Shown one piece after another: positions 6,272 to 6,719 of a stretch of 43,686 nucleotides of DNA. Within the stretch, counting starts at the first letter, position 1. Every line of letters starts with the position of its first letter. The notes beneath the pieces are model-generated. The model had not been told where the DNA came from. It worked only from the letters and a program-made list of their open reading frames with translations, and did no database searches. This DNA is from an uncultured Prevotellaceae bacterium (GTDB taxonomy: Bacteria; Bacteroidota; Bacteroidia; Bacteroidales; Muribaculaceae): assembly GCA_900318205.1 (NCBI GenBank), contig ONJS01000035.1, positions 1-43,686 on the forward strand. Reading direction: 5' to 3'. The translations under genes and the position numbers were made by a program.

Positions 6272-6306
6272 AATAGAGACGCAAATTCATGCGTCTCTAT
6301 TTTTTT
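6272..6306 (+). terminator. Terminator of the 894-residue protein gene
   Basis: AATAGAGACGCA (6272-6283) pairs with TGCGTCTCTATT (6290-6301), followed by T residues. The core GAGACGCAAA matches the terminator at 187-221. Confidence 0.85.
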
Positions 6307-6382
6307 GCTTTAGCTTGTCCGGTAAAGATTTTCAACATCTGCATAATTCACTATATATGAGATGAAATAACATTTCTGCTGT

Positions 6383-6694
6383 ATCATGGACTTAGCTTTT
6401 GCCTCGTAGAGGCAGGCCGAGTCGAAGACTCAACTTTTATGGAAAACACCTTGCAAGCTCATCGAAGATGAGCGCAGCTTGGTGGTAGCTATATCAAGTG
6501 GAAAGTGCGTCGTAGACGAACTTCTACATCCGTCAAATCACAAAGTTCCTCTTCGAGGCACTTGCAATGATCGGCTTATGGAGCAAGCTGCGAACCTCTT
6601 CGAGGTTCTTGCATGGTCTTTCTCATTGACATCGGTTCTTCGAACCGCTAACATCTTCGATGTTTCTCAGGACACTGATGCTTTTATGCATCAT
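6383..6694. repeat. Two inverted copies of a four-hairpin non-coding element
   Basis: This gene-free block holds eight short hairpins with three-base loops. The four on the left read C-GNA-G on the plus strand: 6400-6414 (TGCCTC/GAGGCA), 6419-6431 (GAGTC/GACTC), 6457-6473 (GCTCATC/GATGAGC) and 6508-6518 (CGTC/GACG). The four on the right read C-GAA-G on the minus strand: 6548-6558, 6592-6608 (GAACCTC/GAGGTTC), 6633-6647 (CGGTTC/GAACCG) and 6650-6664 (AACATC/GATGTT). Loop-to-loop spacings are 18, 40, 48, 40, 47, 40 and 17, a mirror pattern. The reverse complement of the right half aligns with the left half, sharing linkers (TGCAAG, CGCAGCTTG, AAGTG, AACTT) while the stem sequences differ but still pair. 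No family is recognised. The unit could act as RNA or as single-stranded DNA. Confidence 0.8.
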
Positions 6695-6719
6695 GTATTG
6701 GGGAAAAAACAGTGAAGGA

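Follow-up and report, generated by a model that had tools for sequence, protein, structure and literature searches.

The window, that is the whole analysed stretch of 43,686 nucleotides, carries between two convergent genes a gene-less miniature inverted-repeat element of 372 bp (6309-6680, plus strand). An earlier note had placed a hairpin region at 6383-6694; the region is real, but these coordinates are too narrow for the element. The left terminal inverted end (6309-6326, plus strand; TTTAGCTTGTCCGGTAAA, a degenerate variant of the family form YATTRGTGTCCGGTAAA) and the right one (6668-6680, minus strand; CAGGACACTGATG, family form CCGGACACYAATR) were both delimited by an empty site and by the ends of full-length relatives, and they are bordered by the two copies of a target-site duplication, TTTTTTTGC at 6300-6308 and CTTTTATGC at 6681-6689, identified by eye and identical at 7 of 9 positions. 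An end module of approximately 70-80 nt (6327-6399, plus strand) leads from the left inverted end to the first of four hairpins on the plus strand: H1 (6400-6414, TGCCTC-GTA-GAGGCA), H2 (6419-6431, GAGTC-GAA-GACTC), H3 with its outer clamp CACC/GGTG (6447-6484, core GCTCATC-GAA-GATGAGC at 6457-6473) and H4 (6503-6523, AAGT-G-CGTC-GTA-GACG-A-ACTT). Beyond a short spacer (6524-6542), the site of a Y1 transposase gene in relatives, follow their counterparts on the minus strand: H4' (6543-6563, core CCTC-TTC-GAGG), H3' (6592-6608, GAACCTC-TTC-GAGGTTC), H2' (6633-6647, CGGTTC-TTC-GAACCG) and H1' (6650-6664, AACATC-TTC-GATGTT). All hairpins were assigned from the sequence and a consensus fold; the eight stems named in the earlier note occur in the sequence as written there, and alignment confirmed that the two halves are inverted copies (78% mean column identity).

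The nearest relative (locus L308, left gene 95.8% identical) has a clean, uninterrupted empty site with the target ATTTTTTGC present once, and this sets the bounds of the window element at 6309-6680 with a duplication of 7/9 (by eye). We also inspected the orthologous site in the best 29 loci, taken from 74 other genomes of the genus matching the recQ-side flank; none of the 29 contained the element, and the left neighbour gene was present in 24. Within the window genome, the same DNA was found at nine places, several of them with one arm, together with a 43-base fragment on one such contig. A search of related genomes, as proposed in the earlier note, yielded many further copies: when a full-length copy was used to query 149 other genomes, matches (which include arrays around Y1 genes) were obtained in 71 of 90 from the same genus (E of 0.001 or better) and in one of 59 from other genera, the latter marginal (E 4.2e-4). 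The copies displayed have differing flanks. Scanning GTDB genomes for the pattern yielded 47 stretches, whose record titles all name Bacteroidales, Muribaculaceae, Prevotellaceae or Porphyromonadaceae and, where they name an animal, ruminant gut. No DNA match to 6340-6700 was found in phage and plasmid collections. One copy of the window family (L004, 1359-1811) is broken inside H3' by a stretch with a hairpin of its own.

The 312-nt hairpin region folds better than all 100 of its dinucleotide shuffles, both as DNA (z -7.6, one strand folded) and as RNA (z -5.2 for one strand and -6.1 for the other). Covariation was analysed on 150 unique four-hairpin units (70 left and 80 right; 46 of the units lie next to Y1 genes), aligned without structure and then submitted to RNAalifold. 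The consensus consisted of the four hairpins and the outer clamp of H3, with standard pairs in 4767 of 4929 cells (96.7%); at the outermost pair of the clamp, 75 of the 150 units have C-G and 71 have G-C. Changes on both sides of a pair occurred 104 times on single branches of the tree, and 79 of these led from one Watson-Crick pair to another. Re-pairing the same columns 1000 times produced 3.5 changes of the latter kind on average and never more than 25, and sliding the partner column by 1-3 left 1-5. For both-side changes of any kind the slid controls reached 26-39 against the 104 observed, hence relatedness inflates this count and the Watson-Crick-to-Watson-Crick count discriminates better. 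Outside the fold, values of 4 to 7 are also seen for a few column pairs, two of which extend stems H1 and H2. The statistical test suggested in the earlier note thus upholds its claim that the stems are kept by compensatory change.

The loops are mostly the trinucleotide GNA (548 of 600; by hairpin 138, 134, 128 and 148 of 150). Loops of the d(C-GNA-G) type are very stable in DNA; our literature search on GNA triloops gave no relevant description. A genome-wide excess of C-GNA-G hairpins was considered as well and proved modest: hairpins with 3-nt loops of all kinds numbered 382 in 806 kb of the element's own genome and 217 in one order-3 Markov sequence.

Selection on structure, as read from the paired changes in the earlier note, is likely, although the palindromes could have another origin. 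Template switching, a known mutational route in bacteria, can renew perfect palindromes, and with 96.7% of cells paired the changes might reflect mutation of this kind rather than structural selection. However, the conserved linkers, the GNA loops, and the number and order of the hairpins indicate function, as does the association of one array type with a single Y1 clade described below, and a G-A mismatch in H4 persists uncorrected; we thus regard a mutational origin of the paired changes as unlikely.

The earlier note had left the choice between RNA and single-stranded DNA. The former would mean a structured RNA or a 3'-end regulatory element that is retained for its effect on gene expression, and would fit the good folding of both strands as RNA as well as the position of the window copy between convergent genes and beside a terminator-like stem, H2 itself scoring as terminator-like. 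Yet the Rfam search of the window found three tRNAs and nothing else, flanks differ between the displayed copies, the element is absent from the orthologous site in all 29 best loci and the conserved loop is unusually stable in DNA, which makes this role very improbable. As a Y1/HUH enzyme is what the arrays surround, single-stranded DNA is the likely setting.

In several relatives, a gap of approximately 515 nt separates the two half-units and encodes a protein of 147 aa, the layout common to relatives being H1-H4 and H4'-H1' on either side of a Y1/HUH transposase gene of about 147 codons. The protein matched Pfam Y1_Tnp (2.9e-22) and, above the model cut-off, NCBIfam IS200 (1.3e-16), and scored below the cut-off of the REP-associated NCBIfam model. 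Its predicted structure (pLDDT 84.7) is most similar to IS200/IS605 transposases, with the TnpA-REP structure 4er8 at a TM score of 0.63. The Y1 motifs are [ND]H[VI]H and Y..NQ..HH, and the W motif is WG in 46 of 49 genes of the genus and WQ in 21 of 22 recognised genes elsewhere in the phylum. Matches to the 147-aa protein were found in 81 of 101 genomes of the genus (E 1e-5), and matches to the Y1 protein P0001 in 152 of 395 Bacteroidota genomes (E 1e-12).

To the flanks of these genes we applied a test of inverted similarity. Of 51 genus Y1 loci given, 49 were recognised, three had short flanks and 46 were measured; the set consists of the best matches and 20 loci picked by hand from the list, and is not a random sample. 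Inverted similarity exceeded the best of 100 shuffles in 44 of the 46, with L148 and L267 below, and the lowest score of those 44 loci, 58, was reached by one of 2000 random flank pairs from the element's own genome. An inverted hairpin doublet associated with a Y1 gene, the arrangement that marks REP/REPIN systems, is therefore present. The phylum-wide test (29 best loci) found inverted flanks above shuffles in 17 of 28 measured loci and is the weaker one; in four of the 28 the motif search took a wrong stretch. Arrays fall into types labelled A to E. Type A was present on both sides of 27 of 28 genes that are 65-100% identical to P0001; the exception, L142, lacks its downstream flank and has no array match upstream. 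Among 12 genes at 56-61% identity, six had type B, in four cases on both sides, two had type A without B and four had neither, and among nine genes at 39-45% identity two had type C matches and seven none of the types. Thus type A tracks one Y1 clade, and type B does so in part.

The window genome has a different Y1 gene (L087, G000:C31:369677-370102), 41% identical to P0001 and with inverted hairpin flanks of its own. It also has a remnant (L088, G000:C49 near 12129) that matches only residues 1-21 of P0001 and is enclosed by inverted GGCC-type hairpins; it may represent an intermediate between an array with a gene and a gene-less array. In three loci of different species (L119, L120 and L125) the type-A Y1 gene lies, by eye, apparently between the same two neighbour genes, as expected of a gene that is long resident and does not hop.

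Full-length copies of the miniature are mostly 377-380 bp long and end in YATTRGTGTCCGG. Their inverted ends, YATTRGTGTCC, are shared with seven IS4-family insertion sequences, with at most one mismatch per end and with partial agreement beyond about 11-13 bp. Among 36 elements with paired ends, distinct by sequence, 9-bp direct repeats matched at 7 or more of 9 positions in 22 and at fewer in 14, while in 2000 shuffled pairings elements of the former kind numbered 1.7 on average and seven at most; the 36 are partly dependent, since L011 and L012 occupy a single site and one right end in L074 is common to two elements. The seven insertion sequences (L228, L229, L231, L237, L238, L243 and L255) share the first 11 bases and have 9/9 duplications, and the other IS4 loci with paired ends (L219/L235, L230, L244/L256) have duplications of 3-5 of 9. 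The L228 protein belongs to the IS4 family by NCBIfam and has the domains DUF4372 and DDE_Tnp_1; DUF4372 occurs in 27 of 101 genomes of the genus, and the window genome is without it. None of the IS4 loci examined has the exact end GTGTCCGGGGAAA, the closest being L243 with GTCCGGTAAAA at one end. An exact form of the end occurs in 16 of 101 genomes of the genus. The end motif ATTAGTGTCCGG by itself was not enriched (9 and 13 matches, the reversed control having 22 and 16), so only paired ends carry signal. The assertion that no gene, CRISPR or IS explains the element was thus overturned twice, by the Y1 transposase gene that the same arrays flank in relatives and by the IS4-family-type inverted ends and 9-bp duplications of full-length copies.

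In 30 fetched loci, the same end was also found to enclose arrays of other kinds. Of these, type B arrays flank Y1 genes as well, and type C arrays do so with less certainty; for types D and E none of the Y1 flanks examined gave a match, so derivation from a Y1 locus is not established for every array held in these ends. A module of about 80 nt at one end looks common to the types (67% mean column identity, nine sequences). Four further loci (L113, L118, L207 and L217) represent another miniature family with IS4-type ends, whose inner palindromes around GGGGACGGTT match no examined Y1 flank. Some gene-less type-A arrays were also seen in different inverted ends, GTAWCTATTCASCGATTC, which may resemble IS66-type ends (L032, L037 and L338); an 8-bp direct repeat is evident only in L338, with 7 of 8 positions matching, and in L032 and L037 the match is at 3. 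If upheld, this would mean that two unrelated kinds of miniature element have acquired the arrays.

A Y1 gene inside IS4-type ends was rejected as a candidate arrangement, for none of the 49 Y1 loci has such an end within 700 nt both upstream and downstream; the ends accordingly belong to the miniature. The same result bears on the idea of a REPIN-like element moved by the Y1 enzyme alone, its IS4-like ends being coincidental or part of the Y1 recognition site. HUH transposition produces no target duplication, so that the repeats of at least 7/9 in 22 of 36 elements would be unexpected, and the enclosure of unrelated hairpin arrays by the same ends also argues against this idea. Despite the match of the arrays to Y1 flanks, and a precedent in the REP doublets moved by TnpA-REP (described in PMC6006769), movement by Y1 alone is thus quite improbable.

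The array anatomy common with Y1 loci, the covariation, the IS4-type ends, the duplications and the empty site are seen directly in the sequences, and in our view the reading that most probably accounts for them is a miniature inverted-repeat element (MITE) with IS4-type ends, moved in trans by a DDE transposase, whose body derives from a Y1-associated array and whose hairpins are putative Y1 sites. The outer ends YATTRGTGTCC and the 9-bp duplication are those of the IS4-family insertion sequences of the same genus (DUF4372 plus DDE_Tnp_1), and from these features we infer that an IS4-type DDE transposase, acting in trans, most likely catalysed the spread as a unit of 372-380 bp. The body is a gene-less palindromic cassette of four hairpins and their inverted counterpart, presumably descended from the array that in relatives stands on both sides of a Y1/HUH transposase gene, whose product resembles TnpAY1 subclass 1.2. 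By analogy with REPs for TnpA-REP, the cognate Y1 probably binds or cleaves the hairpins as single-stranded DNA, and we propose that such binding or cleavage would explain their covariation. The window copy itself is probably dormant, because its ends are worn (degenerate, with a 7/9 duplication) and no enzyme for the element was found in the window assembly (94.8% complete): it has neither a DDE_Tnp_1 or DUF4372 gene nor a type-A Y1 gene, the other Y1 sequences there being the 41%-identity gene and the short remnant.

More tentatively, and with considerable doubt, one may suppose that subclass 1.2-like Y1 enzymes of Bacteroidota have cognate, co-evolving inverted arrays of GNA-loop hairpins that serve as interchangeable cassettes in unrelated DDE miniatures, both those with IS4-type ends and those with the second type of end, the arrays being written or renewed by Y1 and carried by DDE enzymes. 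If true, a single-strand HUH system and a double-strand DDE system share one element, joining two transposition systems in one unit. The arrays around the Y1 gene suggest a substrate of a poorly understood enzyme group, and this widespread orphan group of HUH transposases would gain a candidate substrate testable with oligonucleotides. Moreover, strong compensatory change is found here in hairpins that need not be RNA.

Among known systems, the REPtrons, in which REP, BIME or REPIN sequences accompany TnpA-REP (RAYT), likewise have a Y1/HUH gene bracketed by inverted hairpins, arrays tied to one transposase clade (here type A), dispersed gene-less copies, and a gene in one shared neighbourhood (by eye for the A-type gene). 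They differ in having one hairpin per side and the class 2 motif Y...NP, compared to four hairpins per side, GNA loops and the motif Y..NQ..HH here, and in that the dispersed full-length copies here have ends of the DDE type together with 9-bp duplications. The GT[AG]G foot of REP/REPIN sequences is absent as well: it was found within 2 nt of the foot in 0-4 units per hairpin on this strand, at most 4 of 150 at any hairpin, and in 0-1 on the other (n=80 for H1 and n=150 for H2, H3 and the H4 core, with the outer H4 foot excluded). With IS200/IS605 (TnpAY1 subclass 1.1) the relatives share hairpins near the gene and, according to the structural prediction, the enzyme fold, whereas the arrays here are inverted on two sides and many hairpins long and the motif is distinct.

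According to the survey of Quentin et al. 2018 (PMC6006769), TnpAY1 subclass 1.2 comprises proteins of about 148 aa with the motif Y...Q..HH and the W motif WQ, mostly from Cyanobacteria and Bacteroidetes; its table gives 'no' under REP, and terminal IS200 structures are generally lacking, both as survey observations on the subclass and not as its definition. The relatives' gene agrees in HUH, Y..NQ..HH, a length of about 148 aa and its occurrence in Bacteroidota, and the Y1 genes of other Bacteroidota genera also agree in WQ (21 of 22 recognised). In contrast, the genus genes have WG (46 of 49), a departure from the WQ of the survey, for which reason we describe these enzymes as resembling subclass 1.2 and do not assign them to it; inverted arrays accompany the gene at 44 of the 46 loci measured in the genus and at 17 of the 28 measured across the phylum, against none in the survey's table. 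In the portions of the literature covered (including PMC3733652, PMC8266576 and PMC11194056), no arrays are described for subclass 1.2 and no such arrays inside IS4-type miniatures. With IS4-family MITEs the element shares the YATTRGTGTCC inverted ends and the 9-bp duplication of the IS4-family insertion sequences of the same genus, the lack of a transposase gene and a length under about 500 bp. It differs from them in its body, which is a palindromic array matching the flanks of another transposase and not a deleted IS4 gene, and in that the same ends hold several unrelated arrays. Thus both kinds of component are known, and it is their combination that is unusual.
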